A DNA stretch of 52,854 bases, taken from Bacteroidaceae bacterium (GTDB lineage Bacteria; Bacteroidota; Bacteroidia; Bacteroidales; Bacteroidaceae). The position numbers were made by a program, and so were the translations under genes. The stretch spans positions 1-52,854 of the forward strand of contig JAFSNB010000017.1 of NCBI GenBank assembly GCA_017447625.1. Direction: 5' to 3'. Below, one piece after another: positions 561 through 7,300 of this stretch. The notes under the pieces were generated by a model. The model was not told the DNA's origin and ran no database searches. It saw nothing but the letters and a program-made list of their open reading frames with translations. The number at the start of each line of letters is the position of its first letter. Within the stretch, counting starts at the first letter, position 1.

Positions 561-733
561 TCAGAGGTATAGGTGTGCGATGGTGATTTATTTTTCTTCC
601 GAAGATTATTACTACCTTTGCCAACGAGTTCTCCTAACTAACATGATCTGAAAGAAAAAAATGAAGAATTATTTGGAGGTATTGAAAATAATTCCTTCTT
701 TTGCAGCAACAAACTTACAAATTACCCTATATT

Positions 734-973
734 ATGCCCGAAGTATTCAGATTTTTTGGATTTTCGTTCTTCTTTTATAGCAGAGAACATGAGCCAGTTC
801 ACATTCATGTGGAAGGTAATGACGGAATTGCTAAATTCGAATGGAATGGAAAAGAATTCATACTTACAGAGAGGCAAGGCATCAAAACAAATGACTTCAA
901 GAAAATAAAGAAAGTGATAGACGATAATGCAGACATTATCATAAAACGATGGAACGAACACTTTAAATTATAA
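734..973 (+). CDS. DUF4160 domain protein
   Basis: A 79-residue protein starting MPEVFRFFGF, with FFFYSREHEPVHIHVE and a C-terminal helix ending KRWNEHFKL; this is the DUF4160 pattern, in which a His-rich strand follows the aromatic one. The ATG at 734 is chosen over an upstream in-frame TTG at 701 because DUF4160 proteins usually begin this way. It sits 12 bp before the DUF2442-like gene. Such pairs are common in bacteria and are often suspected to be toxin-antitoxin modules, but no function is shown here. Confidence 0.75.
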   Translation: MPEVFRFFGFSFFFYSREHEPVHIHVEGNDGIAKFEWNGKEFILTERQGIKTNDFKKIKKVIDDNADIIIKRWNEHFKL

Positions 974-985
974 GGAGGATTGGAT

Positions 986-1387
986 ATGAAGATTGTAGAA
1001 ATATGGTTTGATGCAAACTATTTATACGGGAAGGATGCAGACGGGCGTGAGTATCGCCAGTCTTTATTATGGTATCCGCGGTTAAGGATGGCTACAGAAG
1101 AAGAGCGCCAGAGGTATTCGTTTGGTTTTAGCGGGATTCATTGGCGTGAGCTTGATGAAGATGTCAGCTTTGAAAGTTTTGCATACGATGATGCCGAGCC
1201 TTCTTCTTTGCAACGTTTCTTCTTGACACACAAGGAGATTAATGTGGCTGAGTTTGCACGTTCCCTTGGAATTAATCCTACATTACTGCGTAATTACATT
1301 AATGGTTTTAAGACACCATCAAAGAAACGCGAAATGGAAATCTTGGATCATATTCACAGACTGGGCGAAGAAATGATTGCAGCTTAA
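986..1387 (+). CDS. DUF2442-like protein with C-terminal helix-turn-helix
   Basis: A 133-residue protein. Residues 1-60 resemble DUF2442 (VEIWFDANYLYGKDADGRE, then LLWYPRL). Residues 75-130 carry a predicted helix-turn-helix (INVAEFARSLGINPTLLRNYINGFKTPSKK), suggesting a DNA-binding antitoxin or autoregulator. AGGAGG overlapping the end of the upstream gene sits at a good distance from the ATG at 986 and decides this start over a TTG six bases earlier. It is probably co-transcribed with the DUF4160 gene and ends in a 4-bp convergent overlap with the MBL gene. Confidence 0.75.
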   Translation: MKIVEIWFDANYLYGKDADGREYRQSLLWYPRLRMATEEERQRYSFGFSGIHWRELDEDVSFESFAYDDAEPSSLQRFFLTHKEINVAEFARSLGINPTLLRNYINGFKTPSKKREMEILDHIHRLGEEMIAA

Positions 1388-2637
1388 ACAGGCCTATCAC
1401 CGGACAGTGTTACTGATTCGCCGTCATTGAGGACGGTGATGGTGTATTCATAGCTGAAGAGGTTGGCAAAGGCCTCGGGTTCTTCCGTATGAATTGGGAT
1501 AATCGACATGGGGCTGAGTAAGTGGAAGAGCTCGCGCAGACTCTTCATGTCGCAATGTCCGCTGGTGTGTAAATACTCATAGTCTGTGCCTAACGAACTG
1601 GCAAGTCTGGGATTATAAGCCTCGCGACCTACCTCGACATAGCCTTTCCACATGGACAGATACTTATGTTTATCGCCAGGAAGTCGCTCAATGAAGTTAT
1701 CGAAGCGATCATTGGCACGGGCAATCAGCACATAGCCTTTCTGCTCCAAGAGGTAGCGGAATTTGTCGTTCAAACGGAACTCATTGTCCTCATATTGGAG
1801 AGTCATTGGAGGATATGTCTTATCATATTGATAGAGTTCTGATTTTCCCCAGATATGGTCTCGCTTTGTGACTGCATCCATCATTCGTCGCTGATAAGCA
1901 TCTACAATAAACGGGCGGTCGGCCTTGCGAGCAGCGTGGTAGAGGCCGAACAGGCGGTCGATGTTTGATGAGGACAGGTAGATGACGTTACACTTGTGTT
2001 CTCGAAACCTGGACGCATACTGTTTCTGCAACTCCGGTTCAGAAACGCTGGTCGCATCCGGTCTGTGAACATTTGTGCCTTCACATACCACATAATCCAC
2101 TTTGCCGATGTATTTCTTGATAACCTTCGGAAGTGTACCGCTTCGGAAACCGTGAGTGCGGAAGTCACCTGTATGGAAGACTCTCTGCTGTGCCGTTATC
2201 TTAAAGGCGCAGGCTTCGAAAGCGGAGTGATCAACGATTATGGGCATAATCGAGAACGGCCCGAACGCGAATTTCGCTCCTGGCTTGAACGTATTGACCT
2301 TTTGCAATTTGTCCAGCATCTTTTGCTGCACATTATCCACAGATTTAAGATGGTCTGAAAGAACCAGCTGGATCTCACGTCCCATCTCACTCATATATAT
2401 GGGCAACTCTTCCGGCAGTTCTGTTATGCAGCCGATATGGTCGCCATGATAATGGGTAATGAGCAGAGCACTCTTCGTCAGGTCGCCATGAGTCAGCCCC
2501 TCCACTTTCAGCGTCCCGGACTTTGGCCCACCTTGCAACTCCTCCCCGTAATCGACGAACAGCCTCCAGCCCTCACTCTCATATTCCGTCACGCAGCCAC
2601 CAATCTGGTGCGTGCCGCGATGAATGGTAATTTTCAT
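1384..2637 (-). CDS. Beta-CASP / metallo-beta-lactamase fold hydrolase (RNase J-like)
   Basis: A 417-residue protein. THYHGDHIG near residue 61 is the HxHxDH zinc motif of the metallo-beta-lactamase fold; HTGDF supplies the downstream His/Asp, and a late SGHCD plus PIHTEEP resemble the C-terminal beta-CASP motifs of RNase J and CPSF-like nucleases. The expected activity is metal-dependent cleavage of RNA or DNA, which is family inference. Its ATG overlaps the stop of the upstream PD-(D/E)XK gene by 4 bp, so the two are probably translationally coupled. It is the last gene of the six-gene operon beginning with the sigma factor. Confidence 0.8.
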   Translation of the reverse strand: MKITIHRGTHQIGGCVTEYESEGWRLFVDYGEELQGGPKSGTLKVEGLTHGDLTKSALLITHYHGDHIGCITELPEELPIYMSEMGREIQLVLSDHLKSVDNVQQKMLDKLQKVNTFKPGAKFAFGPFSIMPIIVDHSAFEACAFKITAQQRVFHTGDFRTHGFRSGTLPKVIKKYIGKVDYVVCEGTNVHRPDATSVSEPELQKQYASRFREHKCNVIYLSSSNIDRLFGLYHAARKADRPFIVDAYQRRMMDAVTKRDHIWGKSELYQYDKTYPPMTLQYEDNEFRLNDKFRYLLEQKGYVLIARANDRFDNFIERLPGDKHKYLSMWKGYVEVGREAYNPRLASSLGTDYEYLHTSGHCDMKSLRELFHLLSPMSIIPIHTEEPEAFANLFSYEYTITVLNDGESVTLSGDRPV

Positions 2638-3518
2638 AAACGATTGTAATCAGTTAGTACTTCATCGATATTTGAGTATAAGCCTTCACATACTTCCTTG
2701 ATTGTTTTCAGGCGTTTGTCTCTTCCTGTTGACTTCTTTGTATATGTCTGTTTTATTAGGAGAAAGACCTTATCATGTACAGTTACTGGTTTGGCAGATG
2801 TACGCTGAACTCCTATCTTCTCCATGATTTCCAACACAGTAGTATAATACTCTACCAAGATAGGCTTACCTGTTTTTCCTTTCAACTTATCAGCCTCAGC
2901 AATGAACTTCTCATAATTCTCCATCTGTGTTCTTATCTCTGCACGCTCTCCCCTTGAAGGATAAAGTCGTTGGTCATCAATTAGTTTCAGTTCCACAAAA
3001 CAGATTTCTCCACTATCGGACATCTTTACCAAATCAATCCTAATATCTGTACCGTCATCCAATCTTAGAGCAAATTCCGTATCGAAGTAATGGCTATCGT
3101 TCATATAGATTTGTGATTGAACATACTTTTCACTGGAATAGATGTTTCCTTCCTTTCCTTCATCTTCTATACAAGTTGTGTATTTTTTGTTTGCCTCAAC
3201 TCGTTTCTTTATCATTGGAAGTCTGCAAACAAGTTCTTCAGGGCACTCCTTCACGTTCCCGTATTTTATGCCTAAGGCCGTACATGTATCCTTATCGTAC
3301 CCTAAGTAGTAGTTGTGTATTTCAGCTGTCACTTTGCCTTCATTATAGCTAAGGCTCATAATAGAAGCTCCACGATAGTAAACATTTATTCTGTTGTCCT
3401 TTCTTACATTTATATACAAATCCCTGTCCTCTAAAAGCATTCTCCACCACAAAGGCTTATGAGACAAGAACTCAAAGAGTCCTGCATCCTTATTTAATCT
3501 GAAGTATTTCTTATCCAT
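2634..3518 (-). CDS. Hypothetical protein with PD-(D/E)XK nuclease-like core
   Basis: A 294-residue protein I cannot name. Around residues 150-185 it has DIRIDLVKMSDSGEICFVELK, in pieces an Asp on one strand and E-x-K on the next after a short hairpin, the hallmark of PD-(D/E)XK nucleases. The flanking parts look alpha-helical and Lys-rich. It is more AT-rich than the metabolic genes further right, which fits acquisition by transfer. It follows the small membrane peptide gene by 7 bp and overlaps the MBL gene by 4 bp. Nuclease activity is inference. Confidence 0.6.
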   Translation of the reverse strand: MDKKYFRLNKDAGLFEFLSHKPLWWRMLLEDRDLYINVRKDNRINVYYRGASIMSLSYNEGKVTAEIHNYYLGYDKDTCTALGIKYGNVKECPEELVCRLPMIKKRVEANKKYTTCIEDEGKEGNIYSSEKYVQSQIYMNDSHYFDTEFALRLDDGTDIRIDLVKMSDSGEICFVELKLIDDQRLYPSRGERAEIRTQMENYEKFIAEADKLKGKTGKPILVEYYTTVLEIMEKIGVQRTSAKPVTVHDKVFLLIKQTYTKKSTGRDKRLKTIKEVCEGLYSNIDEVLTDYNRL

Positions 3519-3525
3519 AATATTA

Positions 3526-3627
3526 TCAATTTATTTCCTCAAACTCTGAGTTGGACTCGCGGAAGGCCCAAATGAGATAGAGGCCTGCGAACCATAAAAC
3601 GGAAACGATTATAACTGTGAACATCAT
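3526..3627 (-). CDS. Small single-pass membrane peptide (33 aa)
   Basis: A short reading frame starting with two Met codons encodes a hydrophobic stretch (VIIVSVLWFAGLYLIWAF) followed by a charged tail (RESNSEFEE), so it looks like a single-pass membrane peptide with N-terminus in or near the membrane. It exactly fills the space between the DnaE-like gene (8 bp upstream) and the PD-(D/E)XK gene (7 bp downstream), spacing typical of a real operon member. Coding status rests on that fit and composition, with no family recognised. Confidence 0.55.
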   Translation of the reverse strand: MMFTVIIVSVLWFAGLYLIWAFRESNSEFEEIN

Positions 3628-3635
3628 GCTATAGT

Positions 3636-4487
3636 TTAGAATTCATACTTATACGATGCCAACACGCGACTGACGGCGTGGGCTTTCAGAAAAGCGCGAG
3701 GGTTGCTGGTGAGACGTTGCCAGGCGGCTCTGGCTTTGGCTGGAGTGAGCCCTTTGAGGTCAGAGAAGAGTTCCTGCTTGTAGGCTTCCACTTGTTCAGC
3801 GTCTCCCCGCTGAATGCTCAGGCGGATTTGGTTGGCCTTGATGCTGGAGACACGAAATGTCTGGCGAAGGATGTCCAACATCTCCTCCTGATAGATGAGG
3901 AGGTCGCTCTGGGGATTCTGAACATAAGCGTCGTACAAATCCATCGTGTCAGGAAAGCTGAGGGCGTAACGCGCCAGCTCGTCGTCGATGTTCTCAGGCA
4001 GAGGCCGTTCACGCTTCCGGCTCAGATACTCCATAGGCGTCAGGTTCTTGAGGCGCTGCAACATTCTCTCGCGAATGGCCTCGATGCCGTAACCCTCTGC
4101 TGCACTGGCCTGCAACACATCCTCTGCCATCTTCATGAACTCATCGTAGCGCGAAGCCTCGATGTCGAACTGGAACTTCGGCAGTTCGTCGTTGACGAAG
4201 CGGACGGAGTGAAGACCGTACTCGATTGGGTCTATCTCCGTGAGGCCCAAGCAGTAGCAGACTACAGACGAGGGCACAGCGCCACGCGCCCAGTAGCCGA
4301 TTCCCGCCGAGGCGGCATTGTGACGGAAGATAGTGAATGCCATGAGATAGTAATCCACGAAACCAGCATCCATAATGTGCTTTTTCTCCCATAGACAGCG
4401 CAGTATTGCTGCCTTGCTGGGCTTGTCGCCGTAGCGCATTTTCATGCCTGCGGCCACAAGTCCGTGAAATATTTCCAAAAGTGTCAT
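3636..4487 (-). CDS. Truncated DNA polymerase III alpha (DnaE)-like protein, probably catalytically altered
   Basis: A 283-residue protein aligning by eye with the DnaE palm. GYWARGAVPSSVVCYCLG and LTEIDPIEYGLHSVRFVN correspond to DnaE's GPGRGSAAGSLVAYALG and ITDIDPLKYGLLFERFLN. FQFDIEA stands where DnaE has PDFDIDF, so one catalytic Asp looks kept and its partner is Glu. A later IYQEEMLDILRQTFRVSS matches the finger region VYQEQVM, ending AFLKAHAVSRVLASYKYEF like FNKSHAAAYA. The PHP domain, the region with the third catalytic Asp and the beta-binding tail are absent. I chose ATG 4487, two bases after the upstream stop; a longer in-frame extension overlaps that gene and reads as low-complexity shadow. 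Confidence 0.75.
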   Translation of the reverse strand: MTLLEIFHGLVAAGMKMRYGDKPSKAAILRCLWEKKHIMDAGFVDYYLMAFTIFRHNAASAGIGYWARGAVPSSVVCYCLGLTEIDPIEYGLHSVRFVNDELPKFQFDIEASRYDEFMKMAEDVLQASAAEGYGIEAIRERMLQRLKNLTPMEYLSRKRERPLPENIDDELARYALSFPDTMDLYDAYVQNPQSDLLIYQEEMLDILRQTFRVSSIKANQIRLSIQRGDAEQVEAYKQELFSDLKGLTPAKARAAWQRLTSNPRAFLKAHAVSRVLASYKYEF

Positions 4488-4489
4488 GT

Positions 4490-4990
4490 CTAAGCTTTTA
4501 CTACTCTTTTGAATTCGACAACCATGTTTTGCAGCTTCAGGATGGGCTGCCCCAGCCTTGTCTTTACTCCTTCGTGATGTGCCTTCACCCAATCCACGAC
4601 TCGGTTCCGAATCTCGTTGTCGTAGGCGATAACGACCTGCAAGGGCTTCTGCGTGGCGAGGAGCCCTGAAACATGGTTGGCGCTGTCGGGGCGGACACTG
4701 GTAATGCCGAGAATGTAGGGAACAAGGGATCCGTTTAGCGAGCACAGATTACCCTCCTGCTCAAAGCCGAGCTCCTGCTGAACGCCCTCCACAATCTTGG
4801 CCAGCGTGAAAAGGTCGTCGGTGAGGCCGTTTTGGCAGATGGCGTCCAGTTCAGCATCCAGCGCCTGCTCCATTCCCATGATGTCGATGCCCTTTTGTTT
4901 CCTCATATATTCCACCTGAAAGCGGAACGATTCATTCTTGGCTCGTGTGGCCAACTGCGCCTTGCGCTTCTGATCTCTATTCTTACTCAT
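4490..4990 (-). CDS. DnaE palm-like protein, degenerate paralogue of the next gene
   Basis: A 166-residue protein. Residues 1-40 are Lys/Arg-rich. Then ELDAICQNGLTDDLFTLAKIV resembles, in part, the DnaE helix before the active site; GSLVPYILGITSVRP matches GSLVAYALGITDIDP; and PLQVVIAYDNEIRNRVVDWV matches the PDFDIDF..RRDEVIxYV segment with the catalytic aspartates replaced. It therefore looks like a second, inactive copy of the same palm region carried by the next gene, 2 bp downstream. Alignment is by eye and remote. A structural or regulatory role in a complex with the larger copy is inference. Confidence 0.55.
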   Translation of the reverse strand: MSKNRDQKRKAQLATRAKNESFRFQVEYMRKQKGIDIMGMEQALDAELDAICQNGLTDDLFTLAKIVEGVQQELGFEQEGNLCSLNGSLVPYILGITSVRPDSANHVSGLLATQKPLQVVIAYDNEIRNRVVDWVKAHHEGVKTRLGQPILKLQNMVVEFKRVVKA

Positions 4991-5006
4991 TGTTCAGTTT
5001 TTATGT

Positions 5007-5417
5007 TTATACGTGATTGATTTTTCTCAGTGCATTTTCTTTGATTTGCCTCAGTCGCTCCACTGTGAGCCTGCGGTCGGCTGCGATTTGTTCCAGGCTC
5101 TCGCCATTTGCGATGTCGCGCAGGATGCCACGTTCGCGAACCGTCAGTACGGGATGCCATTGGTCTATCGGTTCGCCATTCTCAGTAGATGCCAAGGCTT
5201 CGAGGATGCTCTGCCGAATCCACCATACGGCGTAGGACAAGAACTTGAAGCCTTTGCTGGGGTCGAACCGCTCGTCTGCCTTCACCAGCCCCTTGTTTCC
5301 CTCTTCGATAAGTTGCTCCATGGTGAGCCCACGGTTCTTGTACTGCTTTGCCACAGCCTCAACTATGCGACGGTTTTCGGCAATAAGGTTTTCAATCTTC
5401 ATTTTGTTGTTCATCAT
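5007..5417 (-). CDS. Minimal RpoD-like sigma-70 factor
   Basis: A 136-residue protein. Residues 10-70 match sigma region 2 of Bacteroidetes RpoD, including [26 protein letters not shown] and [19 protein letters not shown], which contacts core RNA polymerase and the -10 element. Residues 88-134 match region 4 ([12 protein letters not shown], then the helix-turn-helix [20 protein letters not shown]). Region 1 and nearly all of region 3 are missing, so it is about half the length of a primary sigma factor. It is the first gene of the six-gene operon, 16 bp before the DnaE-like gene. A role directing transcription to the operon or to a mobile element is inference. Confidence 0.8.
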
Positions 5418-5476
5418 AACATTTTTTTAATTAAGAGGAATAGCCCCCCATTATATTAATACGATTGAAAATGCAC

Positions 5477-5514
5477 AAAAAAGGTGTTTTTGCCGTTTGA
5501 TATGCAAAAACGCC
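5477..5514 (-). terminator. Rho-independent terminator downstream of the DUF6946-like gene
   Basis: An 11-bp near-perfect stem (GGTGTTTTTGC at 5483-5493, GCAAAAACGCC at 5504-5514; one mismatch) is followed on the minus strand by six T. It lies about 30 bp after the stop of the gene at 5546 and separates that unit from the sigma-factor operon. Confidence 0.75.
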
Positions 5515-5545
5515 GCAGAAGGGAGGTGAGATTTTTGCTAAACTC

Positions 5546-6250
5546 TTATGTGAATGAGTAATCTGTGCCTATTTCAACTTCTATCTTCTTTATCCAACAT
5601 TTAATTCTTTTGCCTAAAATATTTCGAATGATATAACCATCTTGGACATTTATGAATTCGCAGAAACGATTAAAGTCTTTGTCATTTTCCCTGCATTTAT
5701 CATCATAGTTAGATTCCTTACAAACATTTCCTTTAAAAACTATGAATAGCGCAATACAAACATCTTTTCCTGCATCGATAGCAGCTTTCATCGTTCCATA
5801 AGTAGCTGTGAATAGCTGATAACCAATATCCTTGTAGTTGGCACTATTATTATCACTTAAAACATGTGCTAACTTTTCCGAACGTTCAATTTTCCCTGGT
5901 TCTTTTATTTTTTTTATTTTTTCATCAAAAGATTCAGAAACTTTAGCTTCAATACCTATCACCATCTTCTCTCCTATCATCAACATATCATGAACTCGTG
6001 GCCCCCCTTTACACATACCTTTGCCCAAAGAAGTTTTATATTCTGGATAGCAATCAAAGTACATAGGTTCAAATCCACAATCGCAAAGAACTGAATTTAT
6101 CAATGAAGAGAAATCGGCTCTATTGAGTACAAATTTTGCCAATTCCATAGCACTTCGTCCGCATTTCCATTGTTTGGATGCTTTCGGCGCAGGCCATTTA
6201 TCAAATCCATTAATTGCACACTTATTGTTGTCTATGATTGCAAATTCCAT
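5546..6250 (-). CDS. DUF6946-like PD-(D/E)XK protein
   Basis: A 234-residue protein. The centre, HDMLMIGEKMVIGIEAKVSE, has the Asp, then E-x-K arrangement of a PD-(D/E)XK nuclease core, and the N-terminal WKCGRSAMELAKF resembles the opening of DUF6946 proteins, which share the EAKVSESF signature. It is AT-rich compared with the window's metabolic genes. It lies 34 bp behind the WYL regulator gene on the same strand and ends at a strong terminator, so the two form a unit. Function unknown; a defence role is plausible from the WYL neighbour but unproven. Confidence 0.6.
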   Translation of the reverse strand: MEFAIIDNNKCAINGFDKWPAPKASKQWKCGRSAMELAKFVLNRADFSSLINSVLCDCGFEPMYFDCYPEYKTSLGKGMCKGGPRVHDMLMIGEKMVIGIEAKVSESFDEKIKKIKEPGKIERSEKLAHVLSDNNSANYKDIGYQLFTATYGTMKAAIDAGKDVCIALFIVFKGNVCKESNYDDKCRENDKDFNRFCEFINVQDGYIIRNILGKRIKCWIKKIEVEIGTDYSFT

Positions 6251-6284
6251 ATCAAATAAGAATTTAAGTTAGAAAAACTTTTGT

Positions 6285-7193
6285 TCACACGTATCTCTTC
6301 CCCATCTTACTCACCTCTTCTTTCATCCTCTCCCTCAACGTTTCTGGTTCAAGTACCTCTACCCTATCCCCCATAGCCAGCAGCTGGCTGAAGAGTTCAG
6401 GAGTCTCGCAGAGGCGATAGGTGAATTCTGCAAACTCGCCATGTTTGGATCGGCCTTCTGTTTGACTTTTGTGAAGCGGCGTAGAACGAAGGTACTCAGC
6501 CTGCACACCGTAAGCGCGAATCTTTACGTTCACAACGGGGAGGTTTGGACTTGCATAAATACCCACAACATCAGCGAAGTGCTTGCGAGCATCGAAATCC
6601 TCGGGCATGGAGAACTTTTTTGTAAGCACCTTCAAGGCGAGGATGCGGTCAAGGGCTATCGTGCGCAGACCGTTCTGTTCCTTCAGAAATCCCAGCAGAT
6701 ACCAACGGCGGTTATACACCTTCAGGGCGTAGGGCTGAATGTGGAATGTCTGCAGGTGCTCTTCCTGTTCATGTTCATAGCGCTGATAGTCTATCCGCAG
6801 CTCCACATTCAACTGCATCGCCTCAATGATAGAATCCAGAAACGCCTGACCCAGCGGTATCTCCTCCAACAGGATACGATCCCTCATGCGATTGAAAGTC
6901 ACGAAGTCCTGCGGGATACTGTACTTGCGCAGCAGCCACTGAGCCAAGCGGTTCTCGTCAAGCACCTCCGGGTTCTTGACAAAATAGGAGTTCTTCTTGC
7001 GGTCGCAATCAATCACCACCCCGAACATCTCCTCAATGCCTTTGCGATACTCATGGAAGGTACGCTTTGCCAGCGGCCCATCGCACACAGGATTCATCTC
7101 CCACATCACGCAGATGTCTTCAAACGTGAGCGGTTCACTGTTGAGCAACAAATCCAGCAACCAAATATACTTATAATAAGTCTTGCTAATCAT
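6285..7193 (-). CDS. WYL-domain transcriptional regulator
   Basis: A 302-residue protein with an N-terminal winged-helix part (MISKTYYKYIWLLDLLLNS), a central WYL domain (IQPYALKVYNRRWYLLGF, then LRTIALDRI) and a C-terminal WCX-type extension. WYL proteins sense ligands, often nucleotides or nucleic acid, and commonly control phage-defence genes. The start codon is inside a 33-bp direct repeat whose other copy covers the 3' end of the flavodoxin gene, so its upstream region was rearranged. It probably regulates itself and the DUF6946-like gene 34 bp downstream. Confidence 0.85.
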   Translation of the reverse strand: MISKTYYKYIWLLDLLLNSEPLTFEDICVMWEMNPVCDGPLAKRTFHEYRKGIEEMFGVVIDCDRKKNSYFVKNPEVLDENRLAQWLLRKYSIPQDFVTFNRMRDRILLEEIPLGQAFLDSIIEAMQLNVELRIDYQRYEHEQEEHLQTFHIQPYALKVYNRRWYLLGFLKEQNGLRTIALDRILALKVLTKKFSMPEDFDARKHFADVVGIYASPNLPVVNVKIRAYGVQAEYLRSTPLHKSQTEGRSKHGEFAEFTYRLCETPELFSQLLAMGDRVEVLEPETLRERMKEEVSKMGKRYV

Positions 7194-7218
7194 CTATCTC
7201 ACCACTTCGGTGAATTCG
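7186..7218. repeat. 33-bp direct repeat, copy A (WYL gene start)
   Basis: Bases 7186-7218 are identical to 7875-7907. This copy contains the first codon of the WYL gene and, in front of it, a vestige of the flavodoxin C-terminal codons (Glu-Phe-Thr-Glu-Val-Val-Arg-stop). Confidence 0.9.
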
Positions 7219-7300
7219 TATAATTCCCAAATTATCAGAAACAAAAATCAGAAGTTGACGTACAGTTTTGATTATACATTATTTTATTATTCTATTGTTC

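Follow-up and report, generated by a model that had tools for sequence, protein, structure and literature searches.

We analysed a 52,854-nucleotide stretch of DNA from a Bacteroidaceae gut bacterium (GenBank assembly GCA_017447625.1, contig JAFSNB010000017.1, positions 1-52,854, forward strand), hereafter the window, which carries six minus-strand open reading frames at 1384-5417 separated by 16, 2, 8, 7 and -4 bp. They encode a miniature sigma factor, two shortened relatives of the polymerase DnaE (P2 and P1), a membrane peptide, a PD-(D/E)XK-like protein and a beta-CASP metallo-beta-lactamase-fold hydrolase (MBL). An earlier sequence-only reading of the window had described these genes and their spacing, and all were recovered as it gave them. 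Such close spacing suggests a single transcript. Genes for a DUF6946 protein and a WYL-WCX transcription regulator lie upstream of the sigma gene on the same strand. Since the genome has its own dnaE (G000:C43, a 1267-aa frame) and its own rpoD (G000:C35), the sigma, P1 and P2 genes of the locus are extra genes. A scan for promoters and terminators over 1300-7300 found sites no more numerous than in shuffled sequences, and for a hairpin followed by a T run between the DUF6946 and sigma genes the gain in folding over shuffled sequences is only modest (z -1.5; 13 of 200 shuffles fold as well).

Judged by their profile matches, P1 and P2 are true relatives of the replicative polymerase DnaE. P1, whose start we place at ATG 4487 (283 aa) rather than at a longer GTG frame because its relatives start there, matches the Pfam model PF07733 (1e-16) and, below the cut-off, the finger domain (0.0015). 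Its sequence matches set in where the PHP domain and palm meet, and residues 433-643 of M. tuberculosis DnaE1 are passed over. P2 matches PF07733 below the cut-off (0.0027), its family profile finds PDB DnaE chains at 2.7e-7, and the P2 model aligns to the DnaE palm. Both proteins thus have the palm in common with DnaE, and P1 the fingers as well, whereas the PHP domain and the thumb are absent, the window proteins are only 166-283 aa long and the catalytic aspartates are replaced. In the PDxDxD motif the first two aspartates are replaced in 27/27 aligned P1 copies; in the P2 alignments position 1 is replaced in 9/9 and position 2 in 8/9, the L066 copy having D. The proposal of two DnaE-palm-like proteins with altered catalytic residues is borne out. 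P1 is monophyletic in our tree (support 100) and forms a long branch outside the Bacteroidaceae DnaE, a placement in which long-branch attraction is possible. The P1 proteins of four loci (L052, L053, L054 and L064) terminate in repeats of the WG type.

Similarly, the profile matches of the mini sigma mark it as a true relative of the primary sigma factor. It matches PF04542 (Sigma70_r2) at 6e-17, with 61.6 bits against a cut-off of 24, and TIGR02937 with 68 bits against 42.9, while Sigma70_r4 is matched at 3.6e-4, below the cut-off; the region 2 of the sequence-only reading is therefore clear and its region 4 weak. These regions are common to RpoD-type and extracytoplasmic function (ECF) sigma factors, whereas regions 1.2 and 3 are absent from the window copy. 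Across loci the sigma proteins range from RpoD-length forms (286-307 aa) through forms of 132-210 aa to region 2 alone (93-116 aa, six loci). We counted residues in 25 mini sigmas, setting aside 8 of 33 sequences (the long forms, with the L042 copy and the 225-aa L043 copy). F427 is kept in 25/25, Y430 in 23/25, W433 in 23/25 (it is lost in L147 and L148) and R436 in 24/25, whereas D403 and E407 of region 2.2 are kept in 8/25 and 14/25. In sigma-70 numbering the former are promoter-melting and the latter core-binding positions, and the promoter-melting type is the better retained.

We also observe that some loci hold a copy of the genome's own rpoD. The copies in L041 and L042 are 97 and 98% identical to it at the amino acid level (92 and 87% in DNA), and that in L043 is 89% identical (83% in DNA). 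In a test over 24 genomes the own rpoD ranked first of 24 for each of the three copies; in L056 no complete rpoD was found. The L042 copy groups with its own rpoD in the tree (support 96) and the L041 and L043 copies with theirs (86), indicating at least two separate captures. Genome G223, which bears L064, is 5.0 Mb in size; it gave 11 sigma matches, and the L064 stretch ends with a DnaE-like frame. The genome is possibly mixed or holds several such loci.

The nuclease-like parts stood up in part. The sequence-only reading had named a PD-(D/E)XK core, a motif that we see by eye in the 294-aa protein with no Pfam match, and an RNase J-like enzyme. The latter protein matches PF12706 (Lactamase_B_2) and PF07521 (RMMBL) above their cut-offs, domains common to RNase J and other beta-CASP hydrolases, and its nearest PDB sequences are RNase J structures; however, this 417-aa hydrolase scores far under the cut-off of the RNase J family model TIGR00649 (57.6 bits against 400), and its gene has a nuclease-like partner. 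The 33-aa membrane peptide is kept in the nearest relative, L040, and none was seen in the corresponding interval of L051. We found a wide variety of proteins in the slots next to the WYL gene and before the MBL gene; to judge by their motifs, most are PD-(D/E)XK-like. DUF6946 relatives occupy the same slot in L051 and L060, the L059 slot holds a metallophosphoesterase and the L063 slot a 64% identical protein. Among ten slot proteins scanned with Pfam, four match REase-ARP (REase-ARP / PDDEXK_13 nucleases) at or above the cut-off, whereas the others match nothing and the two slot genes of the window lie outside this family. In L046 (3681-7686), genes for a 986-aa PPDK_N-domain protein and a YhcG-type PD-(D/E)XK nuclease lie directly upstream of the WYL gene.

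The pair of nuclease-like and MBL genes also recurs on Alphaproteobacterial plasmids. The Rhizobium and Ochrobactrum partner proteins each match the window nuclease family singly, and as a group with a likely Sphingomonas relative they align to it at hhalign 98.6% (1e-15). A Butyrivibrio plasmid carries genes for a WYL protein, a hypothetical protein without a match to the window nuclease family, and an MBL. On a Prevotella plasmid, a WYL gene, a 3'-5' exonuclease gene and two genes of DUF262 lie divergent to a pair encoding an MBL and a metallophosphatase, the MBL being 65% identical to that of the window. The nuclease-like and beta-CASP pair is a candidate system of its own.

Table 1. Genes of the locus in the window, listed in transcriptional order, and plasmids with MBL genes outside Bacteroidota
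Feature	Length (aa)	Position (strand)	Remarks
WYL-WCX transcription regulator		6285..7193 (-)	
DUF6946 protein		5546..6250 (-)	nuclease-like by motif; slot next to WYL; PF22187 7.9e-21
Mini sigma factor	136	5007..5417 (-)	region 2 and weak region 4
P2	166	4490..4990 (-)	thumb-less DnaE palm without catalytic aspartates
P1	283	3636..4487 (-)	DnaE palm and fingers, no thumb, catalytic aspartates replaced
Membrane peptide	33	3526..3627 (-)	relative in L040
PD-(D/E)XK-like protein	294	2634..3518 (-)	motif by eye; homologues adjoin MBL genes in Alphaproteobacteria
MBL	417	1384..2637 (-)	beta-CASP metallo-beta-lactamase-fold hydrolase
Plasmids NZ_CP013575, CP061774, NZ_CP047896			MBL adjoins nuclease-like partner
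Plasmid NC_014390			MBL with WYL and hypothetical gene

Recurrence of the locus in Bacteroidales

We collected 35 P1 loci (the window, L040-L066 and L145-L151; two genomes have two each) and counted partners within 8 kb at E 1e-5. All 35 lie in Bacteroidales. Close P1 relatives were found in 6/201 genomes of the family (E <=2.7e-19), the other matches listed looking like DnaE, as long or contig-end-cut frames, and P1 is present in 22/139 genomes of the window's genus, three of these being fragments. A sample of 392 further genomes of the order yielded no P1 at E 1e-25. Twenty-seven loci came out of a pattern scan of GTDB; their records are titled Bacteroidales, Bacteroidaceae or Prevotella(ceae), and many of the names mention ruminants or the rumen. 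Among viral contigs there was no confirmed relative of P1, P2 or the mid protein described below, and no match to the MBL pattern (a single-protein query); among phage and plasmid records the matches all fall short of 80% coverage of P1, and most of those listed carry a DnaE annotation.

The partners of P1 over the 35 loci are sigma (30), WYL (24), MBL (18), a mid protein (16), P2 (11) and a window-type nuclease (5). The mid protein, of about 150 aa, stands between sigma and P1 in place of P2; either P2 or mid is present in 26/35 loci, and both only in L044. Thirteen of the 14 mid matches in the 139 genus genomes adjoin P1, and the remaining one (G152:C46), at a contig end, adjoins a sigma gene. 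Five loci lack sigma, namely L045, L062 and L151, where a contig end lies within 0.8 kb of P1, L065, where P1 is cut by the contig end, and L149, a lone fragment. P1 occurs with at least two of sigma, P2, window-type nuclease and MBL in 18/34 other P1 loci, which indicates that the set is not a product of chance. The recurrence elsewhere in Bacteroidales to which the sequence-only reading had looked is thus found, with three or more of the genes kept together and their order shuffled: sigma-P2-P1 in the window and L147, P1-sigma-P2 in L066, and mini sigma-P2-P1-GyrA-like-RpoD copy in L041.

A P1 locus lies near a GlcNAc 2-epimerase gene in the window, L034/L051, L049 and L058. We rejected a defence hotspot beside this gene: of 12 downstream stretches, 3 ending at a contig end were left out, and the nine other readable genomes had no P1 locus and differing flanks.

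Miniature relatives of GyrA, FtsZ and DnaB

Beyond what the sequence-only reading had described, shrunken relatives of other essential proteins accompany P1 in many loci: at least one GyrA-, FtsZ- or DnaB-like mini is present in 17/35 (a union that includes a fusion in L060). GyrA C-gate-region minis are found in 9/35 loci. In ten P1-bearing genomes all seven sub-cut-off GyrA matches below 1e-4 fall in P1 loci, and at E 1e-6 the 139 genomes yield six short GyrA matches, all in P1 loci, the other matches listed being frames of 550-889 aa. A further short GyrA frame (G223:C42, 115 aa) covers N-terminal positions 1-78 and is not a C-gate mini.

Minis comprising the FtsZ T7 loop and C-terminal half occur in 7/35 loci, including the fusion to P1 in L060. 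They align to FtsZ at hhalign 95 and 97% (E 3.5e-8 and 8.7e-11), against at most 1.8% for four control families. The mini profile matches 115/139 genomes, most of which have FtsZ-length frames. The mid protein had looked FtsZ-like on inspection, but comparison by hhalign with FtsZ, with the FtsZ-like minis and with the two combined reached 0.0-0.2%, and this assignment was dropped. In four genomes (G201, G207, G209 and G211) a second FtsZ-like frame, 413-487 aa long, scores above the Pfam cut-off besides the usual one.

DnaB-core minis are present in 3/35 loci. The L064 mini (233 aa, PF03796 1e-48) is 41% identical to a same-genus DnaB and keeps the Walker motifs, with the N-terminal domain and internal pieces missing. 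On these matches the three kinds of mini qualify as homologues of the GyrA C-gate region, the FtsZ C-terminal half and the DnaB C-terminal domain.

Pairwise ratios of nonsynonymous to synonymous substitution rates (dN/dS, Nei-Gojobori, where computable) point to purifying selection throughout. The values are 0.09-0.37 for P1 (8 pairs), 0.055-0.12 for P2 (3 pairs, a fourth saturated), 0.07-0.17 for mid (2 pairs, two more saturated), 0.16-0.30 for sigma (3 pairs), 0.07 for the nuclease (1 pair), 0.25-0.42 for the GyrA-like (3 pairs), 0.28-0.36 for the DnaB-like (2 pairs) and 0.26-0.39 for the FtsZ-like proteins (2 pairs). Every ratio is well below 1.

Known systems and possible roles

We scanned ten window proteins and ten proteins of sibling loci and flanks with PADLOC 2.0 (dated 2023). 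In the former group there were matches for two proteins, the WYL protein to WYL models and one Cas3c model and the sigma to MzaA; in the latter, matches were confined to YhcG and to weak hits of the DnaB-like protein on ATPase models. The MzaA match aligns region 2 of the mini sigma (9-77) to 432-500 and reflects sigma region 2 in general; Mza models had no match among the nine remaining window proteins. BREX with BrxR is a WYL-regulated defence locus and, like the P1 loci, has a WYL regulator beside nucleic-acid enzymes, but the scanned proteins gave no match to the core proteins of BREX, CRISPR or any other system in PADLOC. A literature search found no such system described, although a recent description could have been missed, and no locus type known to us brings together mini relatives of five essential proteins beside exchangeable nuclease-like genes. 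The combination of probable DNA- and RNA-cutting enzymes with small, apparently inactive copies of host proteins may point to an as yet undescribed mechanism that senses or blocks invaders through mimicry of host machinery.

Our preferred account, a tentative one that we put at rather less than an even chance, is that the locus forms a modular cassette for conflict, which most likely acts against phage by an abortive route and uses the mimics as bait. One module would be the WYL regulator with an exchangeable nuclease-like gene. A second would consist of miniaturised, mostly inactive relatives of the cell's essential machinery: a DnaE-like core always (by definition of the set), sigma region 2 nearly always, often a second DnaE palm or mid and, in sibling loci, the GyrA C-gate, the FtsZ C-terminal half or the DnaB core. 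A third would be the PD-(D/E)XK-like protein paired with the beta-CASP hydrolase. The minis would act as intracellular bait for those proteins of an invader whose task is to take over sigma, replicase, helicase, gyrase or FtsZ; binding of such a protein would release the nucleases, and the WYL protein would control expression.

Several observations are consistent with this account. Partners persist over the 35 loci while their order shuffles, and with FtsZ, GyrA and DnaB minis in sibling loci, the sigma and DnaE-like proteins appear to belong to a larger set of self-mimics. The own-rpoD copies, near-identical in L041 and L042 and 89% identical in L043, favour a mimic that has to track its host; a regulator of particular promoters would have no use for them. 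The replacement of catalytic residues in all 27 aligned P1 copies and the low dN/dS ratios also agree with the account. A role in defence or conflict fits because the nuclease-like genes are exchangeable and, with the WYL gene, lie beside a constant core; constant mimics with exchanged nuclease-like genes would resemble conflict systems that pair a constant sensor with swapped effectors. The defence or element-control role of the sequence-only reading fits to this extent, and it finds no counterpart among known defence systems.

That lack of any matching PADLOC system is the first of several points that weigh against the bait account. The window itself has no GyrA-, FtsZ- or DnaB-like mini, and the rpoD copy of L043 is split in two frames. 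The GyrA-like minis fall just below the PF00521 cut-off (2e-7 to 5e-7 in 3/3, 29.4-30.5 against 31) and reach only 30% in hhalign. They have P or S in 5/5 where the DMRL motif of host GyrA has R, presumably the site at which CcdB makes contact, and this argues against a role as bait for a toxin of that kind. No mini was picked up by the Pfam FtsZ_C model in 13 genomes, and FtsZ-like minis occur without P1 at L232:7423-8253, L233:6649-7092 and, more weakly, L234:212-658. Since the DnaB-like minis retain Walker motifs, plain inactivity cannot be claimed for every mini. A further gene of L233 codes for a PLD-like protein similar to the one that follows P1 in L060.

The bait account could extend to a self-mimic immunity, which we regard as possible but doubtful. 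Here, a panel of shrunken versions of the most-attacked proteins, refreshed by recapture of host genes such as rpoD, would be coupled to nucleases, so that an invader protein trying to seize the real machine would spring a nuclease trap. This would be a bacterial counterpart of integrated-decoy immunity. If the bait account is true, bacteria could sense host takeover as such, without recognising each virus.

The main rival to bait, which we judge unlikely, is that the minis are poison subunits, which would enter and stall the host RNA polymerase, replisome, gyrase, helicase ring and FtsZ filament; the WYL regulator would release this switch towards dormancy or an abortive outcome. The kept fragments favour this reading, being assembly pieces: the FtsZ T7 loop and C-terminal half, the GyrA C-gate, the DnaB RecA core with its Walker motifs and sigma region 2. 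The rpoD captures favour bait instead, since complete, near-identical copies such as those of L041 and L042 would not poison; the region 2.2 positions presumed to bind core are also relaxed (D403 and E407, above). If the minis are poison subunits, they would be natural inhibitors of sigma, replicase, helicase, gyrase and FtsZ.

Slightly less likely still in our view is a regulatory role, in which the mini sigma would be a working ECF-like sigma for the locus and the DnaE-like proteins would regulate the nucleases by sensing nucleotides or the ends of DNA. The regions 2 and 4 of the window sigma, its TIGR02937 score and the retention of the presumed promoter-melting residues agree with this, as do conserved P1 residues in motifs that we take to line the polymerase nucleotide pocket. 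However, six loci have region 2 alone, L147 and L148 have lost W433, sigma-70-type promoter sites are not in excess at the locus (with a pattern not made for Bacteroidetes), and the FtsZ-, GyrA- and DnaB-like minis are left unexplained. Least of all do we expect decaying remnants of phage, plasmid or duplicated host genes, an alternative to which the truncated proteins, the lone partnerless P1 fragment L149, the split rpoD copy of L043 and the DnaE genes of phage and plasmid records lend some colour, but which purifying selection (dN/dS 0.055-0.42) makes unlikely and against which also stand the same replacements in every aligned copy of a monophyletic P1 and the results for viral contigs.

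Neighbouring features

A conserved 67-70 aa protein is encoded near P1 in 8/35 loci, among them L064 (12733-12936), L050 (11576-11779), L047 (1804-2007) and L046 (10893-11105). L044 (7594-8115, minus strand) and L150 (3134-3655 as oriented) encode a 173-aa protein with a partner of 66-68 aa. In the window, a DUF4160 and DUF2442-HTH gene pair (701-1387, plus strand) is convergent with the end of the operon; its DUF4160 gene weakly matches the toxin DhiT model, and such a pair also follows the locus in L058. Near the contig start, at 216-324, the window carries a 38-nt inverted repeat, 84% complementary, built of AAACCTACAT-like units.

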